Assembly: GCA_022414725.1 (NCBI GenBank)
Contig: CM039464.1
Coordinates: 49,350,499-49,414,498 of the forward strand
DNA from: Microglena sp. YARC
Lineage: Eukaryota > Chlorophyta > Chlorophyceae > Chlamydomonadales > Chlamydomonadaceae
Direction: 5' to 3'
Length of the DNA stretch: 64,000 nt
Under the pieces are notes generated by a model. The model had not been told where the DNA came from and did no database searches. It saw only the letters and a program-made list of their open reading frames with translations. The first letter of the stretch is position 1. Every line of letters begins with the position of its first letter. Below, in pieces: positions 9,960 to 58,344 of this stretch. A program made the translations under genes and the position numbers.

Positions 9960-10282
9960 CGAGAGACAGCACGCAGGGAAGATCTCAACCTGTTCCAAGG
10001 CAGCAGGTCTGAAACCCACCACTGATTTTATTGCTATGTTTTGTCTACATGTAGCATCTGCTGGGCATGTAGACAAAGATGTGGAGGTTAAGAATGGCAG
10101 CAATGTGGATGCGGTGGTGGATGAGATAGGAGGAGCAGCCCACCACTGATTTCGCTGCTGTGTTTTGTCTGGTTGTCTACATGCAGTAGCTGCTGGGCAT
10201 GTAGACACAGATGTGGAACTTGAGGTGACTTAGTGGATGTGATGGTGGAGTAGGGAGGAGAAGCAGCCCACCGCTGATTTAT
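9960..10282 (+). pseudogene. Tandem decayed copies of the SUMO C-terminal coding end
   Basis: Two further copies of the last codons of SUMO lie downstream of its stop, at about 10078-10149 and 10209-10277. The first preserves AATGTGGATGC, GGAGGAGCAGCCC and a stop (TGA in place of TAA). The second is shorter and broken. A trace of the end also lies at about 10005-10024. The copies are separated by a repeated spacer containing TGTTTTGTCTACATG and GCTGGGCATGTAGACA. The upstream ubiquitin fold is not copied, so they cannot encode SUMO by themselves. Confidence 0.85.
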
Positions 10283-12929: not shown

Positions 12930-14029
12930 ATGAGGCCAGGGCAGACGTGGCGCCTTCTCTCCTACTGCCGATCTTTGATTGGCATGGGCCCTTTCCAGGG
13001 AAGCTCCGCCCGCGGCTTGTACGAGTCCTCACCTGTGATCTCATCCCCTGGAGCGAATTTCGTAGCTGCTTCTACCGTGCCAAGGGTTTCAGGGTGGAAT
13101 TTCACATGGGCAGCATCCTGTGGGTTCGCATGGTCAGCAATGTCTACGGTTGCCTTATGCGAAGAGGATACCGAGGTTGTTAAGGACGAGCCCCTGGGCA
13201 GATATTTCTTCCTCAGCAAGGAAACCCGGCAGCGAATCTTCTTCATGTATGAGAAGCGAATCAGGTAATTAGCTAAAGATCTGGACTGCATATTTGGTTA
13301 TAAGCACTTCCCTAGTCCAGCACTTCAGCCCCTACTAGTCCTAGGCTGCACAGTGATCTGTTTGGCTTGACTTGGCCAAATACCAAAATGATGAGATGCT
13401 ACCCAACAGTTCTCAAGGCTTGAATCCAGGCTTGAGACAGTGACTCCAGAGAGACTCCAACATCTTTATGGGAGTGATCTACTTGGCCGGAGTTACAAAT
13501 TGTACTCCGTTGTACAAATTGTAGGCCTGTTGAAACGGTACGAAGGATCTTCATATTGGTGCTGTTGCTGTTGCTGACGACGATGCACGCTATCATGTTT
13601 TCTCAATGGCTCCAACATGTCGATGCGAGTGATCTACTTAGCCAGAGTTACAAATGGACTTGAGACCTGTTAGAAGGTACACATGAACTTAATGTTGGTG
13701 TTGAATTGCTGGTGCTGAGGATGATTTGGTTTTGTTTGGTGACATGGACTAACAGCCCGCAGGCTGCCCACCGTCTGGGAGCGGAGTAAACAGGGGTAGT
13801 CTAAACACTATTTCACCACACACCTGAGTACAGAATGCAATCTGATGGATGCTGACGATGATGTGTGCTATCATGCTGTCTCAAGGAGCCCTGCTTTTCC
13901 TTAATATATCATTAGCATATCGCCTAACCAATCTGAGCAACCAGGACATAGAGCTGCAGATGCTGTTTATACATAACCAGGAGGTATGGTACATGCACAC
14001 AGGGCCTCCCTGTTCTGTTTGAGCTGTTT

Positions 14030-14062
<33 letters not shown>

Positions 14063-17000
14063 GTGTTGATGATGATTACATTTTTCCTGGTTCCGTACTC
14101 GCCTCCAAATGTGCCCGCATCTTGAGTCTAGGAGGACTTATGAACATCCAAATGTATGACGCAGAGTTTTTTCCGTTTCAGAGAGGGGGTCTTATGGTAG
14201 CAATCAGGGATTTGGTGTCTTTCAAGGTTGGTCTCCTGAAAGCGATTTGGGTAGGGGGGTTCGGGTGGCGAGGCCCAGATTCGAGTCTCATGGTAGCAGA
14301 AACTTTGGCCAAAACAGGGTTCCAGGTGGCAATTGTTACTCGAAGCGGACAAACAACTCTGATATGACGCGATGCCGTTGAGTGATGATGTCTAGGTTTA
14401 CAGGTTCTGATAGACAGTTTTTGTGTGTGTCCTGTCTCCTGTTGTGTCTTGTGTCCTTTTTGTGATCTGTGTCCTGTTTCCTGATGTTTCCTGTGTCCTG
14501 TGTCCTGTGTCCTGTTTCCTGTTTGTGTCCTGTGCCCTGTTTCCTGATGTGTCCTTTTTGCGTTTTGTGTTTTGTGTCCTGTGTCCTTTTTGTGTCCAGT
14601 TTCCTATGTCCTGATGCGTCTTGTTTCTTGTGTCCTTTTTGTGTTCAGTGTCCTGATGTGTTTTGTTTCTTTTGTCCTTTTTGTGTTCAGTGTCCTGTGT
14701 CCTATTACTTTGTGTGTCCTGAGTCCTGTGACCTGATGTGTTTTGTGTCCTGTGTCCTTTTTTGTGTCTTGTTCCCTGTGTCCTGATGTGTTTTGTTTCT
14801 TGTGTCCTTTTTGTGTTCAGTGTCCTGTGTCCTATTACTTTGTGTGTCCTGTGTCCTTTTTGTGTCCAGTGTCCTATGTCCTATTACTTTGTGTGTCCTG
14901 TATCCTGTGCAGTGATGTGTTTTGTGTCTTGTGTCCTTTTTGTGTACAGTGCCCTGTTGTGTCCTGTGTCCTGTGTCCTGTGTCCTATTACTTGTTGTGT
15001 CCTGAGTCCCGTTTGTGTTCAGTGCCCGGTGTTCTACTACTTGTGGTGTCCTGTGTCCTTTTGTTGTTCAGTGTCCTGTGTCCTATCACTTGTTGTGTCC
15101 TGTGTCCTGTGTCCTTTTTGTGTTCAGTGTACTGTGCCCTGGCCTGCTGTGTCCTGCGTCCTGTGTCCTATTACTTGTTGTGTCCTGTGTCCTGTTGTGC
15201 TGTGCCCTATTTGTGTACTGTGCCCTGTGTCCTGATGTGTTTTGTGTCCTGTGTCCTTTTTGTGTGCAGTGCCCTTTTGTGTCCTGTGTCCTGTGTCCTA
15301 TTGCTTGTTGTGTTCTGGGTCCTGTTGTGCCCTGTGCCTTAAGCTTTGCCTCCTGTTGTCCTCTTACCCCACTCAGGGATCTCTCAGCCCTGGAAAAGGT
15401 GTTCGACTACTTCTCTTCTCAGGTCAGGAGGTTTGAACTTGTTTTAATGTCTGATGTTTCATCATCTGGTGATTTAATATCTGATGTTTTGAATACAGTA
15501 TCTGATGTTTCAATGTCTGTTATCATAATGTCTGATGTTTCAGCATGCTTTTTCATCATCTGGTGATTTCATACCTGATGTTTTAATACAGTATCTGATG
15601 TTTCAACGTTCATAATCACTGACACACAGTAAACGTATCTGAATCAGGAGCGTGAGAGAATCGAGTTCCACACCACACCCACACCACACTCCTACACGCG
15701 TAATCATATTCATAATCACTGACACTCAGTAAACGTATCTGAATCAGGAGCGTGAGGGAATCAAGTTCCACACCACACCCACACCACACTCCTACACGCG
15801 TAATCATATTAATAATCACTGACACATTGTAAACGTATCTGAATCAGGAGCGAGAGGGAATCAAGTTCATGAGTCCTACAGACCTCCTCCACTCCATCGT
15901 AGCAACCTACCCACCATCAACTGCTTCTGGTGTTGACCGGGCGGGCTCTTTAGAAGGTATGGTGATGATAGTAATGATGATGATGATGCTGATGGCGATG
16001 CTGATGGTGGTGATGATGATGATGGCATGCTTTCGTTTGTTTCATTTAACCCTCATTTTCTTGATGACAGCAGTGTCATCTTCAATTTGTTGTACCGCTG
16101 GGACAGAGAGTTGTACCGCTGGGTCAAGGTGTCCTTCTTCCATATATGCATCGATATCCGAGTCCATGAGTACATCAATCAAAAGCACGCCTTATTACGA
16201 GTTGTGAGGTTGAGGGGGCCAGCCCGTTTGCTTGCACTGGGGCCAACCGCCACTATCCCAAGGTAAATCAATCAATCAATCAAAAGCACGCCTATTACGA
16301 GGCATGAGCTTGAGTGGCCAGCCCGTTTGCTTGCACTGGGGCCAACCGCCACTATCCCAAGGTAAATCAATCAATCAATCAAAAGCACGCCTTATTACGA
16401 GGCATGAGCTTGAGTGGCCAGCCCGTTTGCTTGCACTGGGGCCAACCGCCACTATCCCAAGGTAAATCAATCCATCAATCAAAAGCACGCCTTATTACGA
16501 GGCACGAGCTTGAGTGGTCAGCCCGTTTGCTTGCACTGGGGCCAACCACTAATATTGATATCGTATTCTTTTTGTGTGGGGTGTGTACGTGGTCTATCAG
16601 CCTTCAGGCTGATCACTGTCTGCGGGCGGAGTAAACGTGGGTAGTAAAAACGCTACTACGCCACACTCACGAGTACTGAATGCAATCACTTATGTGTTCC
16701 CATTGTATCTAGGGGTGTCAATATCGTACTGGTCCCCAATGTTATGTGGGAGATGTTTCATACGATATCGTACAATATATTGATGTATTGATATATCGTA
16801 CAATATGTTGTTATATATTGTACGATGGTGTACAATATGTCACATGATATTGTTGACATGTAATACGATATATCTGTACGGCATCGTACTTGACAGCCCT
16901 AATCATATCATATTCTGTTAGGCTCGTGTATATTCTGTTGGGCTCATACATATTTTGTTGGGCTTGTGTCCACCCGCAGTGGATTCTGTAACGATACACC

Positions 17001-18499
17001 CTCCATCTTCTCTGCTCATTTGTTTTATTGTTAGTGTATTTTATGTCCTTGTTTTATTTTTGTATTTATTTATTTATACAAGGATTTTCACTTAACAAAG
17101 TAGGACCCCGTACCCACACCAGCGCCACCAAAGATTCAGAAAGATTCCTTTATAACTTGGAGGAATACCAATGTGTCCAGATCTCTGCTTGCATTTCTTC
17201 CTGCCTCTGTAATCACATGCCCTTCCATCTTCTCCCCCATGTGTCCAGACCTCCTCCTGCATTTGTTCCTGCCTCTGTAATCATATGCCCTTCCATCGTC
17301 ACTGCCATGTGTCCAGATTCCCTCCTGCATTTCTTCCTCCCTCTGTAATCATATGCCCTTCCAACCAGTTATTTTTCAAATCTGAAAGTGGTTTTTCTAG
17401 CTTTCTGGTTTTAGGCCTCCAGGGACAGTGTTTTAGTGCTTTCTATAGCCTTTTTAACTTTTGTATCGCGATATTTTCCCCTAAAAAACATTCCGGGGTG
17501 AAAACTAGCGATCGCTACATATAATGGTACAAAAAAGCCCTGCTTCCATCTTCTCACCCATGTGTCCAGATCCCTTGCTGAAATGATTTCTCACTGCCCA
17601 GGTGACTCTACTGAGATGGTGATCAACAACCCAACCGAGGTAAGTGAGGTGGCCAGGGTCAGGGTCTGGGCCAGAGTGTCACTGGGCCAGGGGTCTTCAT
17701 GCTCTGCATCTCACAATCCGAATCAAGAAGCTTCCACCAGATGCACCCTCGAGGAAGCTTTTGTTGGCAAGATGACAAAGCAAGGCGTAGTGCTGCTAAA
17801 CAGCCCATTATGCATCATTATAGCAATTCAGGGGATGAACTGGACAAAATGTTTCCGTGAGAATTCGAAATTTGTAATTTGTCGAGAATTTTGGCCTGGA
17901 AATCCGAGAATTCTCGACAATTTGGCCTGGAATTCTCGACAATTCTTGACGAAGTGCGAAACGTTAGTCCAGTTCATCCCCTGAATCATTAAGTGTCTTT
18001 CAGGTGCACCTGTTCATGCTGCACCTGGTTTTGCGGCAGCTGCGATACCAATTCCAAGCTTCCTCGGGTTTGCATCTGGTGGAAACTTCTTGCTTCGTTT
18101 GCTGGGCCTGGGTATGGGTCAGTGAGGGGGCCAGGTCCATTCTGAGCATACTCTGACCAGCCTTTGCTCTGATATAGTCTGTGCTTCACGATGTCTAGTT
18201 GTTTATTATTATTCATTCGTGATGCCTAGGCTTGTTGGACCTCATTAGCATGTGATCCCTCCCCCACCACCACCACGCACCACCACCACCACCACCTTAC
18301 CCCCCACACACACACGCAGCCACTCACGCCCCCACCAACGCACCCATGCACCCACGCCCTTTTCCCTATCCCCCATCTCCCCCCCCCCCCCCCACCCACA
18401 CACACACACACACCACACACACCACCCTCATCCCTCTTTGTGCAGCCCACCAAGCAAAACTCCATCTTCCAACAGATTGACACCGACGGTGATGGCTTG
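12930..18499 (+). CDS. MICU: MICU-type mitochondrial calcium uptake protein, 5' part (five exons)
   Basis: Regulator of the mitochondrial calcium uniporter, an EF-hand protein of the intermembrane space. Exons that join in frame: 12930-13264, 15377-15422, 15848-15956, 17602-17639 and 18446-18499, all GT-AG. Exon 1 (start MRPGQTWRLLSYCRS) encodes an Arg/Ser-rich presequence, a hydrophobic stretch (about 68-87, WNFTWAASCGFAWSAM) and an acidic segment, ending RQRIFFMYEKRIR. Exon 2 gives DLSALEKVFDYFSSQ. Together these match the MICU block seen as EYENRIR-STPDKIFRYF in human MICU1. Exon 3 (EREGIKFMSPTDLLHSI) corresponds to the VFMTP-DL motif. Exon 5 (SIFQQIDTDGDGL) is the first EF-hand loop with a DxDGDG core. 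The remaining EF-hands and C-terminus are not visible; the gene runs into a repeat array and the assembly gap. An additional exon between 4 and 5 (for instance 18013-18111) cannot be excluded. Confidence 0.85.
13265..15376 (+). other. Intron 1 of the MICU gene, repeat-rich
   Basis: Donor GTAATT at 13265 and acceptor CCCCACTCAG ending at 15376. It contains a dispersed repeat about 13735-13850 (GGAGTAAAC and GAATGCAAT motifs), a (GAT)n run near 14033-14066 and the GTGTCCT array (14420-15350) abutting the acceptor. Confidence 0.75.
14420..15350. repeat. GTGTCCT-based minisatellite
   Basis: Degenerate heptamer repeat (GTGTCCT, GTTTCCT) organised into larger blocks with TTTTTGTGTTCAG and CCTATTACTTGTTG. 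The cysteine-rich frames it opens are artefacts of the repeat. It ends about 25 bp before the exon 2 acceptor of the MICU gene. Confidence 0.9.
15604..15866 (+). repeat. 100-bp tandem duplication of the MICU exon 3 acceptor and exon start
   Basis: The acceptor CTGAATCAG followed by the first 21 nt of exon 3 occurs three times at exact 100-bp spacing (GAATCAG at 15641, 15741, 15841). Only the last continues into the open exon. In the upstream two, the copied exon start (GAGCGTGAG...) runs into CCACACCACACCC. Confidence 0.92.
16170..16550 (+). repeat. Four tandem copies of a dispersed repeat, 100-bp unit
   Basis: The unit contains ATCAATCAATCAAAAGCACG, TTATTACGAGGC, GCCAGCCCGTTTGCTTG and CACTGGGGCCAACC. 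Elsewhere in the window the same sequence occurs as single insertions (29699-29779, 41891-41991), so a mobile repeat has here been amplified in tandem. Confidence 0.9.
16710..16901. mobile_element. hAT-like MITE, 192 bp, A/T-rich and palindromic
   Basis: Ends are TAGGGGTGTCAATATCGTAC on the left and the reverse complement of TAGGGCTGTCAAGTACGATG on the right. Flanking 8-mers ATTGTATC and ATCATATC match at six of eight positions, consistent with an aged 8-bp target-site duplication. The interior has many ATCGTAC/GTACGAT palindromes. Confidence 0.75.
17166..17365. repeat. 68-bp tandem repeat in MICU intron 3, about 3 units plus a split unit
   Basis: Unit contains GTGTCCAGATC, GCATTTCTTCCTGCCTCTG and TAATCATATGCCCTTCC. 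The array resumes at about 17543-17600, where it runs into the exon 4 acceptor. The interruption is the hAT-like element at 17366-17542. Confidence 0.85.
17366..17542. mobile_element. hAT-like element, 177 bp, inserted into the 68-bp repeat
   Basis: Ends CAGTTATTTTTC on the left and AAAAAAGCCCTG on the right. Flanking 8-mers are CTTCCAAC and CTTCCATC (seven of eight identical). Removing the element and one flank restores a continuous 68-bp unit, which strongly supports insertion. A related sequence lies near 30068-30300 and 52552-52790. Confidence 0.85.
17826..17986. mobile_element. Short inverted-repeat element, 161 bp
   Basis: Perfect 19-bp terminal repeats, TTCAGGGGATGAACTGGAC at 17827-17845 and its reverse complement at 17967-17985. 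The interior is rich in GAGAATTCTCGA palindromes. No convincing target-site duplication. It lies in MICU intron 4. Confidence 0.8.
18246..18425. repeat. CA/CCA-rich simple sequence before MICU exon 5
   Basis: CCACCACCAC and CACACACA runs with C tracts, pyrimidine-rich on the + strand. It ends in the exon 5 acceptor CTCTTTGTGCAG. Confidence 0.8.
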
Positions 18500-20106
18500 G
18501 TAAGTCCTTAGGTGTGGGTGAGGCTGGGTGTGGGGTGGGATGGGATGGGTCTGCCAACAGATTGACACCGACGGTGATGGCTTGGTAAGTCCTTAGGTGT
18601 GGGTGAGGCTGGGTGTGGGGTGGGATGGGATGGGTCTGCCAACAGATTGACACCGACGGTGATGGCTTGGTAAGTCCTTAAGTGTGGGTGAGGCTGGGTG
18701 TGGGGTGGGATGGGATGGGTCTGCCAACAGATTGACACCGACGGTGATGGCTTGGTAAGTCCTTCAGGTGTGGTGAAAAGGCTGGGGTGTGGGGTGGGAT
18801 GGGATGGGTCTGCCAACAGATTGACACCGACGGTGATGGCTTGGTAAGTGCTTAGGTGTGGGTGAGGCTGGGTGTGGGGTGGGATGGGTCTGCCAACAGA
18901 CTTGAACAACCGCGTGACGGCTTGGTAAGTCCTTGGTGGTTGGGTGAGGCTGGGTGTGGGGTGGGATGGGATGGGTCTGCCAACAGATTGACACCGACGG
19001 TGATGGCTTGGTAAGTCCTTAGGTGTGGGTGAGGCTGGGTGTGGGGTGGTATGGGATGGGTCTTCCAACAGATTGACACCGACGGTGATGGCTTGGTAAG
19101 TGCTTCGGTGTGGGTGAGGCTGGGTGTGGGGTGGGGTGGGATGGGTCTGCCAACAGATTGACACCGACGGTGATGGCTTGGTAAGTCCTTAAGTGTGGGT
19201 GAGGCTGGGTGTGGGGTGGGATGGGATGGGTCTGCCAACAGATTTGACAACGCGACTGTGATGGCTTGGTAAGTGCTTAGGTGTGGGTGAGGCTGGGTGA
19301 GGGTGGGGTGGGTCTTCCAACAGATTTACACCGACGGTGATGGCTTGGTAAGTCCTAGTGTTTGGGTGAGGCTGGGTGTGGGGTGGGGATGGGATGGGTC
19401 TCCAACAGATTTGACACCGACGGTGACGGCTTGGGTAAGTGCTTAGGTGTGGGTGAGGCTGGGTGAGGGTTGGGGTGGGTCTGCCAAACAGATTGACACC
19501 GACGGTGGACGGCTTGGTAAGTGCTTAGGTGTGGTGAGGCTGGGTGTGGGGTTGGGATGGGATGCGGGTCTGCCAACAGATTGAAACACGACGGTGATGG
19601 CTTGGTAAGTCCTTAAACAGGTGGTGGGTTGAGGCTGGGTGTGGGGGTGGTATGGGATGGTCTGGCCAACAGATTACACCGACGGTGATGGCTTGGTAAG
19701 GATGCTTAGTGTGGGTGAGGCTTCGGGTGAGGGGTGGGGTGGGTCTTCCAACAGATTGACCACGACGGGTGGATAGGCTTGGTAAGTCTCCATATAGGTG
19801 TGGGTGGGAGGCTGGGTGGTGGGGTGGGATGGGTGGGTCTGCCAACAGATTTGACCGAACGGTTGAACGGCTTGGTAAGTGCTTAGGTGTGGGTGAGCTG
19901 GGTGAGGGTGGGGGTGGGGGTCTGCCAACCTAGATTGACACCGACGGTGATGGCTTTGGGTAAGTCCTTAGGTGTGGGTGAGGCTGGGTGTGGGGTGGGA
20001 TGGGGGATGGTCTGCCACAGATTGACACCGACGGTGATGGCTTTGGTAAGTCCTTAAGGTGTGGGTGAGGCTGGGTGTGGGGTGGATGGGTCTGCCACAG
20101 ATGACC
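18470..20106 (+). repeat. 85-bp array of an EF-hand micro-exon with splice sites, about 19 copies
   Basis: Each unit is a 24-nt coding block (ATTGACACCGACGGTGATGG plus CTTG, translated IDTDGDGL), preceded by CCAACAG and followed by GTAAGT, with about 61 nt of GT-rich intron-like sequence between. The first copy is the 3' end of MICU exon 5. The first five copies are essentially exact. The sixth (about 18900) has a damaged coding block. After about 19230 single-base insertions and deletions multiply toward the gap, as in unpolished reads. Because every coding block is a multiple of three with both splice signals, each could in principle be spliced in. Confidence 0.92.
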
Positions 20107-21106
20107 NNNNNNNNNNNNNNNNNNNNNNNNNNNNNNNNNNNNNNNNNNNNNNNNNNNNNNNNNNNNNNNNNNNNNNNNNNNNNNNNNNNNNNNNNNNNNN
20201 NNNNNNNNNNNNNNNNNNNNNNNNNNNNNNNNNNNNNNNNNNNNNNNNNNNNNNNNNNNNNNNNNNNNNNNNNNNNNNNNNNNNNNNNNNNNNNNNNNNN
20301 NNNNNNNNNNNNNNNNNNNNNNNNNNNNNNNNNNNNNNNNNNNNNNNNNNNNNNNNNNNNNNNNNNNNNNNNNNNNNNNNNNNNNNNNNNNNNNNNNNNN
20401 NNNNNNNNNNNNNNNNNNNNNNNNNNNNNNNNNNNNNNNNNNNNNNNNNNNNNNNNNNNNNNNNNNNNNNNNNNNNNNNNNNNNNNNNNNNNNNNNNNNN
20501 NNNNNNNNNNNNNNNNNNNNNNNNNNNNNNNNNNNNNNNNNNNNNNNNNNNNNNNNNNNNNNNNNNNNNNNNNNNNNNNNNNNNNNNNNNNNNNNNNNNN
20601 NNNNNNNNNNNNNNNNNNNNNNNNNNNNNNNNNNNNNNNNNNNNNNNNNNNNNNNNNNNNNNNNNNNNNNNNNNNNNNNNNNNNNNNNNNNNNNNNNNNN
20701 NNNNNNNNNNNNNNNNNNNNNNNNNNNNNNNNNNNNNNNNNNNNNNNNNNNNNNNNNNNNNNNNNNNNNNNNNNNNNNNNNNNNNNNNNNNNNNNNNNNN
20801 NNNNNNNNNNNNNNNNNNNNNNNNNNNNNNNNNNNNNNNNNNNNNNNNNNNNNNNNNNNNNNNNNNNNNNNNNNNNNNNNNNNNNNNNNNNNNNNNNNNN
20901 NNNNNNNNNNNNNNNNNNNNNNNNNNNNNNNNNNNNNNNNNNNNNNNNNNNNNNNNNNNNNNNNNNNNNNNNNNNNNNNNNNNNNNNNNNNNNNNNNNNN
21001 NNNNNNNNNNNNNNNNNNNNNNNNNNNNNNNNNNNNNNNNNNNNNNNNNNNNNNNNNNNNNNNNNNNNNNNNNNNNNNNNNNNNNNNNNNNNNNNNNNNN
21101 NNNNNN
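20107..21106. other. Assembly gap of 1000 N
   Basis: Exactly 1000 undetermined bases, a conventional scaffold gap whose true size is unknown. The left flank is the EF-hand array and the right flank is unrelated sequence, so the join may hide a large repeat array and the rest of the MICU gene. Confidence 0.99.
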
Positions 21107-21400
21107 CGCCCCAATCCCCCTCACCATCCCTCACCCTACCTCCACTCTTACCCCCCTTTTACCTACCCCCTTCCCCTCTCCCTCACCTACCGCCCTCCCG
21201 CAGAATGGGGAAAAGTTGGTGATAACAGAAACCCTTGGCCGTTAACCATTTGGGCTCGCATCTTTGCATACGACCATCAATGGGAAAGGAGAACCACCTG
21301 AAAAACCTGACCTTCCAGCCCCCTCCCCTGTACAAGGGCAAAGAAGCGCTCAGAAAGGAGTTTTGGACCCCAAATACTTTTGCTATGAGCATGGAACGCA
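21107..21400. other. Sequence between the gap and the 136-bp array
   Basis: C-rich leader, then CCGCCCTCCCGCAG resembling a splice acceptor, then about 200 bp whose translations look partly protein-like (for example ARIFAYDHQWERR in one frame, KGKEALRKEFW in another) but are broken by frame changes. It may be an exon damaged by sequencing errors. No family recognised. Confidence 0.3.
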
Positions 21401-24400
21401 TGGCAACGAAGAAGAATTTCCCCGCCTGGTACCCTAAGGTGGTCCGAGGGGACGTGTGGTAAAGAAACCTATCTTGCCACTATGACAGGGACGAAACTTT
21501 CCGTAATTTTAGAAAAAGAAGAAAAAATGGACCCAGTTAACTTAATGATAATGAACAGTCTAAAACTTAACAAGTAAAAATGGGAACAGGGATGGAATTT
21601 TTGTTTTTGCAGTCCAGCCCCTACGCTATTGGACGTACTGACGAGTGGCAAAAAGCAAAATTCCCCTGGCTGTACCGAAGCGGGTGGAAGGGGGCCGCCG
21701 GTGGAAAGAACCCAGAAAGTAGTGGTGGTACTAGCTGGAAAATTAGAGGAAGAGTTTTGTCCCCCAAATTTAATTGAATGAATATTTGTTTGTAGTGGGT
21801 GGTTAGTCCTGTATATGGCCTGACGCCTATGAACAGCATCTGAGATAAAACGGGTTGCACGAGGAAAGATTCCCTGCTGTTCCCAAGGTTTGTTTGAGGG
21901 ACGCGGTGAAGAACAAGACAAGTAAATCATGGGTAAATGAATAACGCCCTGGTGGGGGGCGTGGTTGTTTTGTTTTGGTTAAGAAAAGCCGTCCGTACGC
22001 GGGTGGGGAGGGTCCTTCCTACGTTCAACTGGGACACTACCCATGCGCGGTGAGCAAACGCTGCACGCTAACGAGCGACAGAAGGGGGTAAAAAAGTCGA
22101 ATCCCCGACTCTTTTCCCTCCTAAAAGGATCTGGTCCCTACCACCAGACCATTGTTAATATTGTGGCTTGGCCTGACAGAAAGCAGTACTTGTATTGCTT
22201 GATTAGGGAATAGACCATTTTTCCCAATTTTTGGGATGGGGAAATTTTGTTTTTTTTGGTCCGTTACTTTTTGCTTAGGACAAGCAAACTGGACGCGTGG
22301 CAGAAGAGATTCCCCCCGCTGTAACCAAAATATGCAGAACACGGTAAAGGGCCTTGGTTATCTGTATCTGTAACTGGTACTTGGTACTGTACTGTAACTG
22401 TAAACGTAGAACTGGGTACTGTACTGTCTGTTACTGTAAAAATGAAACGAGGATGGCATTAGAAATATTTGTTTTTTAAAGTCCCAGCACCTTTGCGTAA
22501 AGTGACCATGTCTGACACGTGGGCCCCGAAAAAAGAATATTTCCCTGCCTGTAGACCCCCAGGTTATAAGGAACGCCGGTTTCCCAAGGACAGAATAGTA
22601 AGTTAGACTGTTAACTGCTGATAAGGGAATAATTTCAATTTAGGAGTTTTTTCATGAAATATAGTCTTGTAAAGGGGGGGGGGGGGGGGGGGGGAGGTAA
22701 TCAAAAATCAAGACGATATGGGTGACACTTTTGGTTTTTGGTACAAGTACTATTGCTATGAGAATTGACGAAGCCAAAGTTCATGAAATACGTCCTGGTA
22801 AGGGGGGGGGAGGGGGGGGTCTACAGGAATGTTTTTTTTTAACTTCAAGATCAAGACCCCTGGATATTGAATGTCCCACTTTGTTTTTGGTGCATTTAAA
22901 CAGGGAATGGCAAACTTTGTTTTGGTAGCAGTATGACGCGTGGCACGAGAAAGAAATTCCCGCCTGTAAACCAAGGGTGGCTAAAGGACGGGTAGAAGTT
23001 AATATGTACAAATGACAGGAAGAATTTTAATTTAAGGATTTTTAATTGTTACCCAATACCTATAGTATCTTAGACAGAAACTGAACGCGTGCACAAAGAA
23101 TTTTCACCGCGTGTTATCCAGGTTGCTAAGACGCAGTTAAGACCTTAATCTTGGTTACAAATGAACAGGGAGAATTTAAATAATTTTAAGTTTTGTAATT
23201 TTGGTTAACCAAAACCTATGCCTATGACGCACTGACGCCCGTGGGCGGAAGAAAAGATTCCGCTGTATCCAAGGTGGTGCAGGAAACGCAGTTAGACTAT
23301 CTGTTACAAATTGAAACAGGGAAAGATTTCCTTATTTAGGATTGTATTTTGGTAACCAAAAACCTATGCTATGGCAGCAACCTGACGCGGGTGCACGGAG
23401 AAGATTTTCCCGTGTATCCAAAGGTTTGCCTAAAGGACGCGTAAAGATATCTGTAACAAAATGACAGGGAATTGAAAATTTCCCACTAATTTAAAGGAAT
23501 TTTGTAATTTTGTACAAAACCTATTCTTAAATGAAAAAACACTGACGCGTGGCAAAGAAGAAATTCCGCTGTATCCAAGGTGCTTAATGGGGTGTAAAGA
23601 CTTCCCTGTACAAATGGAACAGGGATGAAATTCCCTAATTTTGGATTTTGTTAATTGTAACCAAAAACCTATGCTTGAACAGCAATTGACCGCGTGGCAA
23701 ACGAAGGAAGATTCCGCTGTAATCAAGGTTGTAAGGACGCAGTAGACTAAATCTTCGTAAATGACAGGGATTGAATTTTTCTTAATTTTTAGGAGATTTG
23801 TTTTTTGGTAAACCAAAACCTAAATGCATGACCACAACTGAACGCGTGCCAGAAGAAGTTTCCCGTGATCAAAGGTGCCTAAGGACGCAGTAAAGAATAT
23901 CCTGTACAAATGCAGGGATGAAAATTTTTCTAGTCTATTGGTTTAGAAGAGAGGATTTGTATTTGTAACCAAAACCTATGCTATGACAGCACTGACGCGT
24001 GCAAAACGAAGAAGATTCCCCGCTGTATCCAAGGTGCTAGGATTACGCCAGGTAAAGACTATCTGTAACAAATGGACAGGGATTGAAATTTCTTAATTTT
24101 AGGATGTATTTGTAAACCAAAACCTATGCTATGACAGCACTAAGGACGCGTGCACGAAGAAGACTTTCCCGCTGTATCCAAGGTGGGTGGGGCTAAGGAC
24201 GCAGTAAAGACTATCTGTACAAATGACAGGGATGAAAATTTCTAATTTAGGATTTGTATTGTAACCAAAACCTATGCTTATGACAGCATGACGCGTGCAC
24301 GAAGAAAGAAGATTTTCCCGTGTATCCAAGGTGCTAAGGACCGCAGTAAAGACTATCTGTACAAATGAAGGGATGAATTTCTAATTTAGGATTTGATTTG

Positions 24401-27400
24401 TAACCAAAACCTATGCTATGACAGCAACTGACGCGTGCACGAAGAAGATTCCCCGCTGTTAAATCCAAGTGTGCAGGACGCAGGCAAAGACTAGTTCCTG
24501 TACAAATGACAGGGGGAAAAATTTTCTAATTTAAGGATTTGTATTTGTAAGCCAAAACCTGATGCTATGACAAGCAAAACTGACGCGTAGCACGAAGAAG
24601 ATTCCCGCTGTATCCAAGGATGGCTAAGGAAACGCAGTTAACAGACTATCTGTACAAAATGACAGGGATGAAATTTCTAATTTAGGATTTGTATTGCTAA
24701 CCAAAAACCTATGCTATGACAGCACTGACGCGTGCACGAAGAAGAATTCCCGCTGTATCCTAGGTGCTAAGACGCAAAGTAAAGACTATCTGCAGTACAA
24801 ATGACAGGGATGAAATTTAATTTAGGATTTGTATTGTAACAAACCTATGCTATGAGCACACTGACGCGTGCACGAAGAAAGATTTCCCCTGTATCCAAGT
24901 GCTAAGGACCAAGTTAAGACTATCTGAAAGTCAAACTGGACACATGAAAACTCTCTTGAAAATTTCTAATTATTTTTATTGAGCTAACAAAACCTATGCC
25001 CTGATGAGACCAAGCACTGACGCGGCACGAAGAAAGTTTCCCGCGCGTATCCCCCCAGGTACGGCTTAAGGACGCCAGTAAAGACTATCTGTACAAATGA
25101 AATGAAATTCAATTTAGGATTTATTGTAACCAATGGAGTGGAACTATGCTATCTGTGACTAATTGGGGACGTGTTGTTTGTAACCAAAACCTGCTATGAC
25201 GCACGACGCGTGCACGACAGAATTCCCGATTCCCTGTTCCCAAGGTGTGCAGGACGCCGGTCAAAGACTAAAATCTGTACAAATGACAGGGAAGAAATGT
25301 CCAATATTAGGATTTTTATTGCTAACCAATACCTATAGTATGCCTTTAGGCTTAACAGAACTGACACTGCACAAAGAAGATTTCCGCTTATCCAAGGTGC
25401 TAAGGACGCAGTAAAGCACTATCTGTACAATGACAGGGATGAAATTTCTAATTTTAGCATTTGTATTTGTAACCAAAAACATTGCCTATGACAGCACTGA
25501 CGCGTGCACGAAGAAGATTCCCGCTGTATCCAATGGTGCTAAGGACGCAGTAAAGACTATTGTACAATGACAGGGATGAAATTTCTAATTTAGGATTTTG
25601 TATTTGTAACCAAAACTATGCTATGACAGCACTGACGCGTGCACAAGAAGATGTCCGCTGTATCCTAGTGCTAAGGACGCAGTAAAGACTATCTGTACAA
25701 AATGACAGGGATGAAATTTCTAATTTAGGATTTGTATTTGTAACCAAAACCTATGCTATGACAGCACTGACGCGTGCACGAAGAAGATTCCCGCTGTATC
25801 CAAGGTGTGCAGGACGCGGTAAAGACTATCTGTACAAATGACAGGGAAGAAATGTCCAATTTAGGATTTTTATTGCTAACCAATACCTATAGTATGCTTA
25901 GACAGAACTGACGCGTGCACAAAGAAGATTTCCCCCGCTGTAATCCAAGGTGCTAAGACGCAGTAAAGAACTATCTGTTACAAATGAACAGGGATGAAAT
26001 TTTTTCTAATTTAGGGATTTGTATGTTGTAAACCAAAACCTATGCTATGACAGCACTGACGCGTGCACGAAGAAGATTCCCGCTGTATCCAAGGTTGCTA
26101 AGGACGCAGTAAAAAGACTATCTGTACAAATGACAATATGAAATTTCTAATTTAAATTTGTATTTGTAACCAAACCTATGCTATGACAGCACTGACGCGT
26201 GGCACGAAGAAGATTCCCGCTGTAATCCAAGGTGCTAAGGACGCCAGTAAAAGACTATCTGTACAAATGACAGGGATTGAAATTTCTAATTTAGGATTTG
26301 TATTTTGTAACCCCAAAACCTATGCTATGACAGCACTGACGCGTGCACGAAGAAGTTTACGCTGTATCCTAGGTGCTAAGGACGCAGTAAAGACTATCTG
26401 TACAAATGACAGGGATGAAATTTCTAATTTAGGATTTGTATTTGTAACCAAAACCTATGCTATGACAGCACTGACGCGTGCACGAAGAAGATTCCCGCTG
26501 TATCCAAGGTGCTAAGGACGCAGTAAAGACTATCTGTACAAATGACAGGGATGAAATTTCTAATTTAGGATTTGTATTTGTAACCAAAACCTATGCTATG
26601 ACAGCACTGACGCGTGCACGAAGAAGATTCCCGCTGTATCCAAGGTGTGCAGGACGCGGTAAAGACTATCTGTACAAATGACAGGGAAGAAATGTCCAAT
26701 TTAGGATTTTTATTGCTAACCAATACCTATAGTATGCTTAGACAGAACTGACGCGTGCACAAAGAAGATTTCCGCTGTATCCAAGGTGCTAAGGACGCAG
26801 TAAAGACTATCTGGTACAAATGACAGGGATGAAATTTCTAATTTAGGATTTGTATTTGTAACCAAAACCTATGCTATGACAGCACTGACGCGTGCACGAA
26901 GAAGATTCCCGCTGTATCCAAGGTGCTTAAGGACGCAGTAAAGACTATCTGTACAAATGACAGGGATGAAATTTCTAATTTAGGATTTGTATTTGTAACC
27001 AAAACCTATGCTATGACAGCACTGACGCGTGCACGAAGAAGATTCCCGCTGTATCCTAGGTGCTAAGGACGCAGTAAAGACTATCTGTACAAATGACAGG
27101 GATGAAATTTCTAATTTAGGATTTGTATTTGTAACCAAAACCTATGCTATGACAGCACTGACGCGTGCACGAAGAAGATTCCCGCTGTATCCAAGGTGTG
27201 CAGGACGCGGTAAAGACTATTTGTACAAATGACAGGGAAGAAATTTCTAATTTAGGATTTGTATTTGTAACCAAAACCTATGCTATGACAGCACTGACGC
27301 GTGCACGAAGAAGATTCCCGCTGTATCCAAGGTGTGCAGGACGCGGTAAAGACTATCTGTACAAATGACAGGGAAGAAATTTCTAATTTAGGATTTGTAT

Positions 27401-27690
27401 TTGTAACCAAAACCTATGCTATGACAGCACTGACGCGTGCTCGGAGAAAAAATCCCGCTGTACCAAGGTTTTGCAGACGCGGTAAAGACTATCTGTACAA
27501 ATTACAGGGAAGAAATGTCTAATTTAGGATTTGTATTGCTAACCAATACCTATAGTTTGCTATGACAGGACTGACTCGTGCACGAAGAAGATTCCTGGTG
27601 TACCCAAGGTGCTAGGGACGCGGTTAAGATTATCCGCACACCTGACAGGAAAGAAACTTATAATTTATGAAGAAGAAAAATACCCAGAAA
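21400..27690. repeat. 136-bp tandem array, roughly 45 units
   Basis: Unit contains CTATGCTATGACAGCACTGA, CGCGTGCACGAAGAAG, GTATCCAAGG, GACGCAGTAAAGACTATC and AATTTAGGATTTGTATTTG. Units from about 25450 on are clean and close to identical. From 21400 to 25400 nearly every unit carries different insertions and deletions, including poly-G stretches (22674-22695). Some units carry a deviating variant (GTGTGCAGGACGCGG, CCAATTTAGGATTTTTATTG), giving a higher-order pattern. 136 is not a multiple of three, so no frame stays open. Confidence 0.92.
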
Positions 27691-28482: not shown

Positions 28483-28625
28483 GCTCAGGGCCCACGTCGG
28501 TAAAACGATCGTTTGGGGTTCAGTTCATCAGTGCTTTTTCGCTCTAGTCCCTCCTGTCACACCTGGTCCAGCCCCTTTAGCCTATTTGGCCTACCCCTGG
28601 ACTGTAACAACATACTACGGTTGTG
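28483..28625 (+). repeat. SINE-like dispersed repeat, family B
   Basis: Carries CTCAGGGCCCACGTCG, GTTTGGGGTTCAGTTCATCA and GCCTATTTGGCCTACCCCTG, as in the copies at 11125 and 30415. Confidence 0.8.
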
Positions 28626-28632
28626 ACTGCAG

Positions 28633-28816
28633 GACCGCAAGCCTGGCTCAGCTTTCCAGCCTAGGACTCGGAGGAAGTAATTCGCTATAAAATGTTGAGA
28701 ACATACTACTGTTGTGAATGCAGGACCCCAAGCCTAGCTCAGCTTTCCAGCCCATGAACTCGGAGGAAGTGACTTGCTATTAAATTTTGAGAACATTACT
28801 ACGGTTGTGAATGCAG
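28633..28816 (+). repeat. Duplicated acceptor and exon start before gene B exon 1
   Basis: GTGAATGCAG plus the first 70 or so exon bases occur at 28633, 28724 and (the real exon) 28817. The upstream copies contain stop codons or frame changes. The left end of the 12-kb segmental duplication falls inside the second copy. Confidence 0.88.
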
Positions 28817-31800
28817 GACCGCAAGCCTAGCTCAGCTTTCCAGCCCATGGACTCTGAGGAAGTGACTCGCTATAAAATGTTGAGAACTATGAAAGAGAAT
28901 GGGATGAGCGGGACCATGTACGACCGTGACTCCATCTTGGATGAGATGGAAATGATGAAGGAGGAGATGGGGGATGATTTCCCTGGGGAATTTGACCAGG
29001 ATATGCAGGGGGCGGTGAGTGTCTGCGTGTGCGTGTGCGTGTGTGTTTGTATGTGAGCGTGTGAGTGGATGCGCCTGTGTGTGAGTGATGGGGTGATGGA
29101 GGAGGTGGGGATGATTAACATGGGCAAGTTGATCAGGATATGCTGAGGGCGGTGAGCGTCTGAGTGTGCGTTGTGTTTTTATGTATATATGCACGTGTGA
29201 GTGGTTTGCGCCTGTGTGTGTGTGATGGGTGATGGAGGAGGTGGGATGATTAACATGGGCAATTTGTTCAGGATATGCAGGGGGAGGTGAGCGTCTGATT
29301 GTGCGTGTGTGTTTGTATGTAAGCGTGTGAGTGGATGTGCCTGTGTGTGAGTGATGGGGTGATAGAGGAGGTGGGGATGATTAACATGGGCAAGTTGATC
29401 AGGATATGCAGAGGGCGGCGAGTGTCTGTGTGTGCTCGTGTGTTTGTATGTATTTGTGCACGTTGTGAGTGGATGCGCCTGTTTGTGTTTGTGTGTGTTG
29501 GGATGGTGGAGGAGGTGGGGATGATTTCCTTGAGGAATTTGATCAGGATATGCAGGGGACGGTGAGTGCATGCGTATGTATGTCTGTATCTTTGTGTGTG
29601 TGTGTATTTATGTGCAGGGGGCGATGACTGTATGCATCAAAAGCTCGGGTCCTCTGCCGTGTATGTTGTGTCAACTATTCGTTGTGGACAGGTTCATACT
29701 AAAAATCAATAGCAAGCCTATTACGAGCGTGAGGAGGTGGTGGCCAGCCCGTTTTCTTTCACTGGGGCCAACCACCAATCAGGTTCATAACGAGTTTCTT
29801 TAATTTACCCCCCCTCCCTTCCAGACTTTATCTTGATTGTTTGAGGTTGGGCTAGTCCATTAAGGCTATCTGACTACCCCTTGACAGTAACATACATACA
29901 CAAATGGTTGGGCAAGCCAATTTAGCCTGTTTGACTACCCCTTGACCCTTTTTTTGATGACGGATTGCCATTTCCATCGCTGCATGGCGAAGCATGGGTC
30001 TGGCTGAACTCGTCAGAAATGCCCCTCCAAATCCCACTGGGGTTGCACCAAGTCGCTCAACTCGCGACACTAAGGATTTTTTTTCAAATCTGTAAGTGGT
30101 TTTTTTTAGCTGAATGGTTCCAGGCTTCCTCAAGGGACAGCGCTTATATAGCTTGTTACAGCTTTTCCGGGCCATTAAGGGCCATTAGGGGCATTTAGGG
30201 CCATTTAGGGGCATTTATGGCCACAACTGTTTTTCACGGAAATAAGGGCCAAAACGGTGTCAAAAATAGCTATAGCTATACACAGCGGGGGGGGAAATCC
30301 CTGCCTGGACTACAACGTACATACCATCCTACACCGTACATACCATCCTTGTGACTCGTGAAGAATTGAATCGTCATCCCATATGAGTTTGATGATTTGA
30401 TTATATTGTTGCATTTAATGAGCACGAACTCAGGTCCCCCATTGGAAAGTCGATTGTTTGGAGTTCAGTTCATCCGTGTTTGTTTCTTTTTAGCCCTACC
30501 GGTCATGGTTGGGCAAGTCCCTTTAGCCGATTTGGCCAACCTCTGGACTGTGACTGACAGACTGACAAACAGACAGACAGAGAGACAGACAGACAGACAG
30601 ACAGGCAAACGATCATTGACACATGCAGATGCACACAACGTTCAAACCCTGTCCTTGTGACCTTGTGTCACATGCAGAAGGAGAGCGTTGATACATGCAG
30701 ATGCACATAACTTACATACCATGTCCGTGTGTCACATGCAGAAGGAGATCCTTGACACATGCAGATGCACATAACTTACATACCATGTCCGTGTTTCACA
30801 TGCAGAAGGAGAGCCTTGACACATGCAGATGCACATAACTTACATACCATGTCCGTGTGTCACATGCAGAAGGAGAGCCTTGACACATGCAGATGCACAT
30901 AACTTACATACCATGTCCGTGTGTCACATGCAGAAGGAGAGCCTTGACACATGCAGATGCACATAACTTACATACCATGTCCGTGTGTCACATGCAGAAG
31001 GAGAGCCTTGACACATGCAGATGCACATAACTTACATACCATGTCCGTGTGTCACATGCAGGACAGCCTTGACACATGCAGATGCACATAACTTACATAC
31101 CATGTCCGTGTGTCACATGCAGAAGGAGAGCCTTGACACATGCAGATGCACATAACTTACATACCATGTTCGTGTGTCACATGCAGAAGGAGAGCCTTGA
31201 CACATGCAGATGCACATAACTTACATACCATGTCCTTGTGACACACGCAGAAGGAGAGCTTTGCAGCTGAGGCCGAGGCCGAGGGTGGAGGGCTGGGCGC
31301 TGATATTGGCAAAGCTGCAGGTGAGATTGGTGTTGGGTCCAGGTCATGTTTCTTTATGTTTTTCATGCTTCTTAATGTTTTGTCGTGCTTCTTAATCCTA
31401 AGGTGAGATTGGGTCCAGATAATGTTTATTTATGTGTATTAATGTTTCTTAATCTAGCCTCTCCTGTCGGCAGTCCAGGGCTCTGACTTACCCCACCCAC
31501 CCACCACCACCCACCACCACCCACCACCCCACCCACCACCCACCCACCCCACCACCCACCCCAACATACACACACCTCATCTTCAAGTAGCCCAGGGCTC
31601 TGACTTACCTCCCACCCAACCACCCAACACACACCCACCCCAACACACACACACCTCATCTTCAAGTAGTCCAGGGCTCTGACTTACCTCCCACCCACCC
31701 ACCCACCCACCACCCACCCACCACCCACCCCAACACACACACCTCATCTTCAAGTAGTCCAGGGCTCTGACTTACCTCCCACCCAACCACCCACCCACCA

Positions 31801-34800
31801 CCCACCCACCATCCACCCAACACACACACACCTCATCTTCAAGTAGTCCAGGGCTCTGACTTACCTCCCACCCAACCACCCACCCACCACCCACCCACCA
31901 TCCACCCCAACACACACACACCTCATCTTCAAGTAGTCCAGGGCTCTGACTTACCTCCCAACCAACCACCACCCACCACCCACCCACCACCCACCCACCA
32001 CCCACCCCAACACACACACACCTCATCTTCAAGTAGTCCAGGGCTCTGACTTACCTCCCACCCAACCACCTACCCACCCACCTACCCCAACACACAGTGT
32101 TTCTTAATCCAGCCCCTCCTGTCGGTAGTCTCAATTATCTTCATAAGTCGAGTTTGTAGAAGTCCCTTCAGCTTAGGCTTAGGCTTTTTCCTACCCCTGG
32201 ACTGTAACATACATATGTACACACATGCAGTCCCTTAAGCTTCATTGGCTATCCCTGAACTGTAACATATATATGATATATCATATATGTACATACATAC
32301 AGGCACTAACACTGCTTGCTCACTGTTCAACCCTTTGGCATTCAACATACAGGTGGCTTGGCTTGATGCTAGGTTGCACGCTCACTGCTTGCTCACTGTT
32401 CAACCCTTTGGCATTCAACATACAGGTGGCTTGGCTTGATGCTAGGTTGCACGCTCACTGCTTGCTCACTATTCAACCCTTTGGCATTCAACATACAGGT
32501 GGCTTGGCTTGATGCTAGGTTGCACGCTCACTGCTTGCTCACTGTTCAACCCTTTGGCATTCAACATACAGGTGGCTTGGCTTGATGCTAGGTTGCACGC
32601 TCACTGCTTGCTCACTGTTCAACCCTTTGGCATTCAACATACAGGTGGCTTGGCTTGATGCTAGGTTGCACGCTCACTGCTTGCTCACTATTCAACCCTT
32701 TGGCATTCAACATACAGGTGGCTTGGCTTGATGCTAGGTTGCACGCTCACTGCTTGCTCACTGTTCAACCCTTTGGCATTCAACATACAGGTGGCTTGGC
32801 TTGATGCTAGGTTGCACGCTCACTGCTTGCTCACTGTTCAACCCTTTGGCATTCAACATACAGGTGGCTTGGCTTGATGCTAGGTTGCACGCTCACTGCT
32901 TGCTCACTGTTCAACCCTTTGGCATTCAACATACAGGTGGCTTGGCTTGATGCTAGGTTGCACGCTCACTGCTTGCTTACTGTTCAACCCTTTGGCATTC
33001 AACATACAGGTGGCTTGGCTTGATGCTAGGTTGCACGCTCACTGCTTGCTCACTGTTCAACCCTTTGGCATTCAACATACAGGTGGCTTGGCTTGATGCT
33101 AGGTTGCACTCGCACTGCTTGCTCACTGTTCAACCCTTCAACTCAGGGTTTTTCTTCTTGGCTTATCATAGCAGCTTCTTGGCAGCTCCCTGAGCCGACC
33201 ACTTGGCTACACACAACCATTCCAGCAGTTCTTGAAAGCTGATTATATCAGCTTCAAGATGTTCGAGGTTACGCCAAGTTTGGCTGAATAGCCTTTCAGA
33301 GGAGCTGCCTAGAAGCTGCTGCTCGTAGCTGAAAAGGAAATCACTGATTCAACTTGCAGACCGCACTAGTTGATCAGGCCTTACCAGCCAGGGTCCTACC
33401 TTTTGTCTAATTGGTCAGTGCTTAAAGCGCACAAACATCAAATTGGTCAGCGCTTCATCGTGCAAAAAGCGCAAAAACTGCGCGCTGCGCCCACAGGGGG
33501 TAGAAAAAACTGTGTGAAACGCGCTGTGGGGATCAAAAAGTGTGTGCAAAATCGCGCTACCGCGCGCGCTTTGTAGTACCCTGTTCAGGCCTTACCAACG
33601 CGAGCACCTCAGGTTCTCTCTGTCACAATGTTAGGTTGTACTCACACTGCTTGCTCACTGTTATCACTGTTCAACCCTTTGACATTCAACATACAGATGG
33701 CTTGGCTTGATGCTAGGATGCACTCACACTGCTTGCTCACTGTGCTCACTGCTCAGCACACTAACACACATGCACTGCTTGTTAAGCCTTACCAGCACGA
33801 GCACCTCAGGTTCAATCTGTCACTCTGTTAGGTTGGCAGCACCCTCACTGCTTGCTCACTGTTCAACCCTTTGGCATTCAACATACAGGTGGCTTGGCTT
33901 GATGCTAGGCAGCACCCTCACTGCTTGCTCACTGTTCAACCCTTTGGCATTCAACATACAGGTGGCTTGGCTTGATGCTAGGTTGCACGCTCACTGCTTG
34001 CTCACTGTTCAACCCTTTGGCATTCAACATACATTCAGCTGCTATGTGTTTTTACAGTCTAGCTGGTTAAGGTGTGGCCAAATAGGCTAAACAGACTTGC
34101 TCAACCTCAATATTGGGAAGGGCTATATACAAAACCAACACTGATGAACTGAACTCCAACAAATCGTAAACGATGGGGGCCCAGAGTTGGTGCTGTGTAG
34201 ATGATTTAACTTAAAGTTAAAAGACAAAAATCATTACTATTATCGCTATTATCCATATATTGATGAATGTCATATATCTTCACCATATCAACTCTTCAAC
34301 ATCGAGGTGCTGTGTAGATGATTTAACGTTAAGATTAAAAGTCACATGCCATTACTACAATGCATATATTGATGAATATGTCATATATCTTCATCATACC
34401 ATTTCTTCAACAGCCAGGTGCTGTGAAGATGATTTAATTTGTAGTTTATAAGACGCAAGACGTTATTATTATGCATGTATTGACGAATATGCCATATAGC
34501 TTCCTGAGCACACCTAGCTGGCCTGATGAATATGTCATATATCTTGTATCCACCATCATACCAACTCTAGCTGGCCTGATGAGTATGTCATATATATTGT
34601 ATCCACCATCATACCAACTCTATACCAACTCTAGCTGGCCTGATGAATATGTCATATATATTGTATCCACCACCATACCAACTCTTAAACATACAGGTTC
34701 TGTGAAGGATAATTAACGTTAAGATAAAAAGTCGCATGTTATTACTATTATGCATATATTGATGAATATGTCATATATCTTCAACATACCAACTCTTCAA

Positions 34801-35191: not shown

Positions 35192-35894
35192 GGACTCTCG
35201 GGCCCTCTTTCTTTTCGGTTTTAGCTGTGTGTAGTCCCTTTTCGTTTTAGCCCCTCCCGATATCACGGCTAGGCAATTCCCGTTAGCCTATTTGGCCTAC
35301 CCCTGGACTGTAATAACATACATACATATAGTGTAGAACTCTGTTTCTGTCTCGTTACGTGCAGCACCTTGTTGGAAGCTCACCTAGCTGGCACCTCACC
35401 TAGCTGGCAACTCAACTGGCTGGCAACTCACCTATCTGGCACCTCACCTAGCTGGCAACTCAACTAGCTGACAACACTGCTAATCTTGATCTTCAGATGA
35501 GATATTAAAATAAACGTGCATGGGCTTAAAATTTGGGGACCCTAGTAACAATCAAATAACATGGGTGCAAACATGGCAACGTTCATATGGCGACAGCTTG
35601 GACCTGTAGGCTTGTTCAAAAGTCTTGGGATTCTTCCTGATTCTTCTAAAAAATAAATCAGGCCAGTACCATTCTTTTAACCTCACAGGCACTAGTTAAT
35701 ATGAGTGCTTGTGCGGGCTCGTGTGATGATTTATTTTATGCATGGCCCATCATATTGTAAAAAGCCTTGACATGGCAGATGTAAGCCAGTTGATGATTTT
35801 TCCATTGGGCTAGACAAGTAATATGTGATGGGTGTATGGGCATTCCACAAGTCCCCTCTGGTACACAATGCACCCCCAACCCAAATCCCCTGTT
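35192..35894. other. Region downstream of gene B, copy 1
   Basis: Probable 3' untranslated region. About 35235-35330 is a partial family B repeat containing TGTAA (35309-35313), the green-algal polyadenylation motif, though it belongs to the repeat. 35365-35470 is a short repeat of CACCTAGCTGGCAACTCAA. The rest shows nothing. Confidence 0.5.
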
Positions 35895-43121: not shown

Positions 43122-43600
43122 ACCGTGGCGTCTTTGGACCGAGGAGCCTCCACAGATGATAGGGGACTATCTGCAGGGTGCTTGCAATAAAGTTGGGATG
43201 GTGGAGGAGAAAGGGGCCTGGGGGCAAGGTCAACCCTTCCCTACAATGGATGTGTGATCTGTTGCATCTTTGGACCAAGGTGACGCCTTCTGAAGGTCCA
43301 GTTGCCCCCACAGATGATTGAGAACTATTTGCTGGGTGCTTGCAATAAAGTTGGGGTGGTGGAGGAGAAGGGACCTGGGGCTAAGGTCAACCCCTTTCCT
43401 TCAATTGATGTGTGATCTGTGGCGTCTCTGGACCAAGGCGACACTTCTAGAGCTCCAGCTGCTGTTACATATGATCGGGAACTGCAAGAAGGTTCAGTGT
43501 GTGAAAGTAGGCGTGGTGGAGGAGAAGGGACCTGGGGGCAAGGGCAACCTCTTCCCTTCAATGGATATGTGGCGCATATGGGCTTCAACAAGAGAGCGTG
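43122..43600 (+). pseudogene. Tandem decayed copies of the GPD C-terminal codons
   Basis: After the stop at 43121 the last 35 or so codons recur at about 43155-43257, 43312-43414 and, more decayed, 43470-43570, at spacings of about 140-155 bp. The first copy reads MIGDYLQGACNKVGMV...FPTMDV and ends in TGA in one open frame. The first two are preceded by CCCACAG- or TCCACAG-like acceptor motifs. They might be alternative terminal exons or simply pseudo-copies. A last trace (CCCTTCCCTCCGATGGATG) is at about 44350. Confidence 0.88.
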
Positions 43601-51212: not shown

Positions 51213-51297
51213 GCCTAGCTCAGCTTTCCAGCCCATGAACTCGGAGGAAGTGACTTGCTATTAAATTTTGAGAACATTACTACGGTTGTGAATGCAG

Positions 51298-58344
<7,047 letters not shown>

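Follow-up and report, generated by a model that had tools for sequence, protein, structure and literature searches.

MICU-A and its array

The window analysed here is a stretch of 64,000 nucleotides (nt) from the green alga Microglena sp. YARC, taken from the plus strand of C3, a 63.2-Mb sequence in an assembly of 568,105,699 bases and 2390 contigs (G+C of the sequence analysed, 47%). It carries the 5' half of a MICU gene, MICU-A, whose exon 5 runs into a tandem array of 85-bp units. The units contain a 24-nt core that reads as the calcium-loop octamer IDTDGDGL between an AG and a GTAAGT, and an original prediction had taken them for spliceable EF-hand micro-exons. The features at the locus are as follows.

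12930 to 13264, plus strand: MICU-A exon 1 (MRPGQTWRLL...RIFFMYEKRIR), donor GTAATT in phase 2; residues 1-112 of EukProt protein P0001
15377 to 15422, plus strand: MICU-A exon 2 (DLSALEKVFDYFSSQ), from tblastn and translation, boundary shown
15609 to 15868, plus strand: 100-bp tandem array of 2.6 copies upstream of the real exon 3, from Tandem Repeats Finder (TRF)
15848 to 15956, plus strand: MICU-A exon 3 (EREGIKFMSPTDLLHSIVATYPPS...), from tblastn with P0002-P0005 and alignment; missing from the EukProt model P0001
17602 to 17639, plus strand: MICU-A exon 4 (DSTEMVINNPTE), from tblastn and translation
18446 to 18499, plus strand: MICU-A exon 5 (PTKQNSIFQQIDTDGDGL), phase 0, from alignment; missing from the EukProt model
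18465 to 20106, plus strand: 85-bp array of at least 19 units, each made of the last 35 nt of exon 5 and the first 50 nt of intron 5
18500 to 18549, plus strand: intron segment of unit 1; G-rich, carrying a G-quadruplex (G4)-type motif from a motif scan
20107 to 21106, no strand: assembly gap of 1000 N that terminates the array
21107 to 25500, no strand: probably a low-quality stretch, measured over 23079-24749 on a 136-bp array

P0001 (gene21031) is identical to MICU-A over exon 1, and the SUMO gene at 9.5 kb bears the number just below it, gene21030. The P0001 model skips two conserved exons, those at 15848 and 18446, which marks gene models in this genome as unreliable. When both exons were restored, the E value of the best Protein Data Bank (PDB) match improved from 2.8e-13 to 9.8e-20, the latter for 9k6m, a chain named merely EF-hand domain-containing protein, and that of the MICU1 match 6wdn improved from 3.4e-10 to 3.5e-15; the restored query joined the exons to the C-terminal part of P0001 and also lacked most of exon 1. 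MICU1 6lb7 (3.1e-15) was likewise among the top chains, and the match to MICU chains covers the N-terminal region and the EF-hands. The N-terminus of MICU-A, judged by eye only, resembles a presequence. IDTDGDGL aligns with the first half of the EF-hand loop, which 9k6m continues as ISFGEF, placing the array within a MICU gene at its EF-hand, as had been proposed. A single IDTDGDGL-type loop is present in all three relatives that span the region (P0002, P0004 and P0005).

Past the gap, tblastn with P0001-P0006 gave no credible match in the window for the exons that should follow. The later residues of P0001 were located on another contig, C1151, at ~0.3 to 17 kb, followed in tandem by a paralog, MICU-B. 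Since the 3' half of MICU-A lies there, the sequence beyond the gap in the window is probably not the true neighbour of the array. The candidate for MICU-A exon 6 is an EF-hand-like, error-ridden exon ending in DKDGDG at C1151 ~301-418, and the end of this exon is present in a second copy at the start of the contig (both by eye). MICU-B occupies C1151:17463-28989 (L010:7463 to L011:8989) and has exon-edge copies of its own; the assembly thus separates the MICU-A/MICU-B pair from the 5' half of MICU-A.

Anatomy of the array

TRF reported a period of 85 with 18.9 copies at 18465-20090, and wrap-around alignment resolved 19 full units and an 11-nt remnant directly ahead of the gap, in agreement with the ~19 units first described. 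The gap truncates the array, so 19 is the minimum number of units. The 36-nt sequence CAACAG + ATTGACACCGACGGTGATGGCTTG + GTAAGT is exact in 8 of the 19 units, its core translating as IDTDGDGL in phase 0 and in frame after PTKQNSIFQQ, and successive cores are 61 nt apart (85-24). The flanking signals, the phase and the spacing given in the original prediction are thus correct. The first unit needs a correction: the array begins within exon 5, and the first "unit" is the genuine end of that exon (18446-18499), so that its CAACAG is coding sequence and not an acceptor. At the real exon end the order is ATCTTCCAACAG, core, GTAAGT, whereas the units begin with GGTCTGCCAACAG, except for 3 of 19 that have the exon's own T (TCTTCC). 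This comparison defines the copied segment as the last 35 exonic and the first 50 intronic bases. The donor of each unit is therefore the gene's own donor, and its AG is part of the exon's glutamine codon (CAG).

The array is G-rich (skew 0.50) and contains 18 of the 35 G4-type motif starts on the plus strand of the window. A search of the 568-Mb assembly for the core followed by GTAAG, with up to 2 mismatches, reported 9 matches, all within this array and nowhere else in the assembly, and the reversed control pattern gave 0. This shows that the array is not a chance product. MICU-A exon 5 is homologous to the MICU-B exon KLNSVFTQFDVDGDGL, which has a single loop and is followed by GTGAGT; inspection of the equivalent MICU-B intron revealed no octamer array, so that of the two paralogs MICU-A alone has one.

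Copies of other exon edges in MICU-A and MICU-B

Exon 5 is not the only exon with a copied edge. Ahead of MICU-A exon 3 lie two copies (98% and 89% identity) of its acceptor together with its first ~21 nt, and on C1151 copies accompany edges of MICU-A exons 7 to 12 and MICU-B exons 3, 6, 8 and 10. Around MICU-B exon 6, three acceptor copies lie upstream, and three donor-end copies and a partial one lie downstream. Affected acceptor edges include 15848, C1151 4332 and C1151 24626; affected donor edges include 18499, C1151 5777, C1151 13289 and C1151 24724. Two acceptor-side copies, CAG followed by GAGCGTGAGGGAATCAAGTTC (exon part from 15748) and CAG followed by CAACATAGAGACTG (C1151), run into C-rich sequence and have no donor where the copied exon stretch ends. 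Copying can therefore take place without a complete exon cassette being formed.

Altogether, intron-side copies of the boundary were found at 15 of 32 tested edges of the two genes, a set that excludes both edges of the noisy exon 6 and MICU-A/MICU-B boundaries with unplaceable ends. The 15 omit a match to the exon 3 donor found 1.9 kb off, on the opposite side (otherwise 16/32), and include a weak match to the MICU-A exon 12 acceptor (30 bp at 87%) and the donor edge of MICU-B exon 8, which is misplaced (no GT there; 14/31 without it). In the controls, local copies accompanied 181 of 300 random positions in introns and 33 of 117 positions inside exons. Compared with the intronic control, exon edges are neither spared nor singled out, and we make no claim of targeting. 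Against a founding-unit null, the 38 listed boundaries did show a mild excess of arrays, with 7 clusters where 3.1 would be expected (P=0.034), but enrichment at exon edges was rejected as a conclusion. We read these proportions as tandem duplication that ignores exon edges and is eliminated chiefly inside exons. Twenty 10-kb stretches sampled evenly along C3 (L020-L039, one of them half N) consisted on average of 31% arrays of period at least 20 (range 0 to 71%), and three exceeded 60%.

Sequence conservation and quality of the units

The coding block had been thought to be specially preserved, and the alignment does not bear this out. Substitutions affected 11 of 464 core columns and 31 of 931 columns of the intron part (p=0.41), and indels 25 of 464 and 64 of 931, respectively (p=0.30), so the core shows no constraint relative to the intron part of the kind expected of a micro-exon. 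Nearly half of the substitutions (20 of 42) belong to five variants that each recur in at least 3 units.

The units were also said to be nearly exact at first. This is true of six of units 1-9, which are indel-free (units 1-3 and 7-9, with 0-3 substitutions); the other three of the nine carry indels, and all of units 10-19 carry 4 to 11. A 136-bp array beyond the gap, with ~29 units in two runs at 23079-27667, served as a yardstick of sequence quality, and its indel rate drops away from the gap: 215 indels in 1705 columns at 23079-24749 (182 insertions, 33 deletions), compared with 19 in 1419 at 26250-27667 (17 insertions, 2 deletions). Bins 24750-26249 (139 insertions and 29 deletions in 1529 columns), which contain a break between arrays and the transition, were excluded from these sums. 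Twelve other arrays of the window had 83 indels in 6505 columns (47 insertions, 36 deletions). Because indels crowd both units 10-19 and the 136-bp array near the gap, the flanks of the gap probably consist of unpolished long reads. The case for raw reads is weaker on the side of the 85-bp array, since insertions (53) and deletions (45) are nearly equal there, partly owing to shorter unit variants that look real.

Splicing potential and interpretation

We then consider what the copies would do in the transcript. The sequence ahead of the array AGs is G-rich: six of seven units have 35% pyrimidine there and one has 45%, whereas four real MICU-A acceptors have 50-80%. On a small matrix built from 14 real acceptors, which themselves score -3.7 to 7.7, five of seven tested units scored -3.7 and the others -2.6 and -4.6. 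A score of -3.7 equals that of the weakest real acceptor and is the 58th percentile of 1666 AGs (median -4.6), i.e. an average AG context. The lack of a polypyrimidine tract was rejected as proof of non-use, since some real acceptors here are also weak. Reading on past the exact cores leads to a stop within 40 codons in 7 of 8 cases, the stop following LVSP immediately in the first three units, and an included octamer would, judged from the sequence, place G at loop position 12. Inclusion of the octamers thus appears unlikely.

Our preferred interpretation, to which we assign a probability of roughly 0.87, is that the array is a minisatellite spanning the exon-intron junction, whose copies would leave with the intron and keep the protein unchanged. 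The mini-exon look-alikes would then most likely be carried along silently by a repeat process that affects both MICU-A and MICU-B. A tandem duplication would have taken in the final 35 nt of exon 5 plus the adjoining 50 nt of intron; slippage or unequal exchange would then have expanded this pair within the intron to at least 19 copies. Splicing would most likely join the outermost donor (18500), beside the unique exon, to the exon 6 acceptor past the array, removing all copies and leaving the protein unaltered; both the slippage origin and the use of the first donor are what we infer. The apparent 24-nt micro-exons would arise as passengers, as the copied exon end brings along the real donor and the CAG codon of the exon supplies the AG. 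The original prediction had offered a choice between inclusion of the units and competing splice sites that must be skipped, and the second appears to be the better of the two.

Several observations weigh against this interpretation. GTAAGT is retained in 18 of 19 units. The two splice hexamers (12 columns) have no substitutions in 234 positions, compared with 42 in 1395 elsewhere, 20 of which are the recurrent variants (p=0.003, one of four tests), so the reported persistence of the splice signals holds for substitutions; it does not extend to indels, which occur there as elsewhere (9/234 versus 89/1395, p=0.18). Furthermore, the core is a multiple of 3 in length and in phase 0, one of the 14 real acceptors ties with most array acceptors (-3.7), and three (-3.7, -3.1 and -2.6) are no better than the best array unit (-2.6). 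This overlap means that acceptor context alone does not forbid use of the copies.

These points speak mostly for the units being alternative micro-exons, such that some MICU mRNAs would carry extra IDTDGDGL octamers and the first EF-hand loop would become a DTDGDGLIDTDGDGL ladder. Such a ladder is somewhat like thrombospondin type-3 repeats, and a four-octamer peptide matches EF-hand_5 (E 0.0043) and TSP3_bac (0.14) weakly, both below curated cut-offs. In keeping with this idea, 8 of 19 units have the in-phase 24-nt block flanked exactly by AG and GTAAGT, 18 retain the donor, and the hexamers are free of substitutions. Nevertheless, we regard it as very unlikely: the acceptor context is weak and G-rich, the AG is a copied codon, the core is conserved no better than the intron part, loop position 12 would turn into G, MICU-B and the three relatives have one copy, and acceptor-side copies in the same genes end without a donor. 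The EukProt model also skips exon 5 and the array, which is a prediction and not RNA evidence. Slightly more doubtful still is the possibility that a fraction of MICU-A transcripts carries variable numbers of octamers, with a somatically or allelically unstable minisatellite tuning how the first EF-hand loop responds to calcium.

A role of the array as an intronic element, in which its GTAAGT or G4-type tracts would bind the U1 small nuclear ribonucleoprotein or G-run proteins and promote or slow splicing of intron 5, could draw on the same donors and on the 18 sense-strand G4-type motif starts. It is highly improbable, given that the equivalent MICU-B intron has no such array and that the many other arrays in introns of the two genes differ in composition. 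The least probable account is that the array is mostly an assembly artefact, with inflated copy number and sequencing error in its later units. The indels of units 10-19, the excess of indels in the 136-bp array just past the gap over that farther away and in the 12 other arrays, and the error-ridden C1151 end that carries exon 6 (by eye) would fit. Against it stand the indel-free units 1-3 and 7-9, recurrent variants that look like real array history (C37G in 7 units, T24C in 4) and the balance of insertions and deletions on the array side, unlike the insertion excess across the gap. The decay of the later units is probably an artefact, and the array itself is not.

Other observations in the window

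The SUMO gene is followed at 10072-10149 by a diverged duplicate of its final codons that includes a stop (NGSNVDAVVDEIGGAAHH). A presumed exon at 28609-29566 (QDRKPSSAFQPMDSEEV...), which has no Pfam match, has acceptor-side copies before it (93 bp) and donor-side copies after it (137 bp), and its 137-bp array is also present at 51435-52046. A two-domain phosphoserine phosphatase-like/glycerol-3-phosphate dehydrogenase gene at 40106-43118 has its best PDB match in 6iuy, which we take to be from Dunaliella; its last coding stretch is tandemly copied past the stop (43014-43571), and a second copy of the gene starts at 63270 and is cut by the window end. Open reading frames and arrays recur ~22.5-23 kb apart (28609-41000 and 51000-64000), suggesting that a large segment was duplicated or that a haplotype was left unmerged. 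On the minus strand, 59583-60863 holds a reverse-transcriptase (RVT_1) open frame.

Comparison with known systems

The array is best filed as a new, repeat-rich case of the "mirage" minisatellites of amphioxus, which occur in Adh3 and in the globin genes BflGb6 and BflGb9 (PMC3087553). The literature search, judged by its listings and with a coverage that excludes most subscription papers, found no mirage report from an alga or plant, and PMC11228838 contributed nothing on repeats of this sort. According to the amphioxus report, mirages are minisatellite-like tandem duplications of exon/intron boundaries that hit 5' and 3' boundaries, contain AG/GT in many units and include one locus misassembled in the draft genome (PMC3087553). 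The MICU-A array shares the structural features: its unit spans the boundary (35 nt of an exon backed by MICU homology and 50 nt of intron), and donor and acceptor boundaries are both affected in the MICU pair. It differs in its host, a green alga, in the at least 19 copies at one edge and in the presence of copies at 15 of the 32 edges tested across two neighbouring genes. In amphioxus, reverse transcription PCR suggested no effect of mirages on splicing (PMC3087553).

In a potato RNA-dependent RNA polymerase gene, a duplicated segment that crosses an intron-exon boundary likewise supplies new splice sites (PMC4974935). There the duplication made a new intron, whereas here the copies stay inside an existing one, and the sequence gives no sign that any copy is used. 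Alternative splicing of a MICU gene is itself known from MICU1 in muscle, regulated by RBFOX2 according to the title of that report (PMC8909990); in contrast, the MICU-A copies appear to be passenger copies of an exon end. With about half of the tested exon edges in two genes accompanied by decoy copies, MICU-A and MICU-B offer a natural test of how the spliceosome chooses among identical sites, and of how duplication gives rise to introns and exons.

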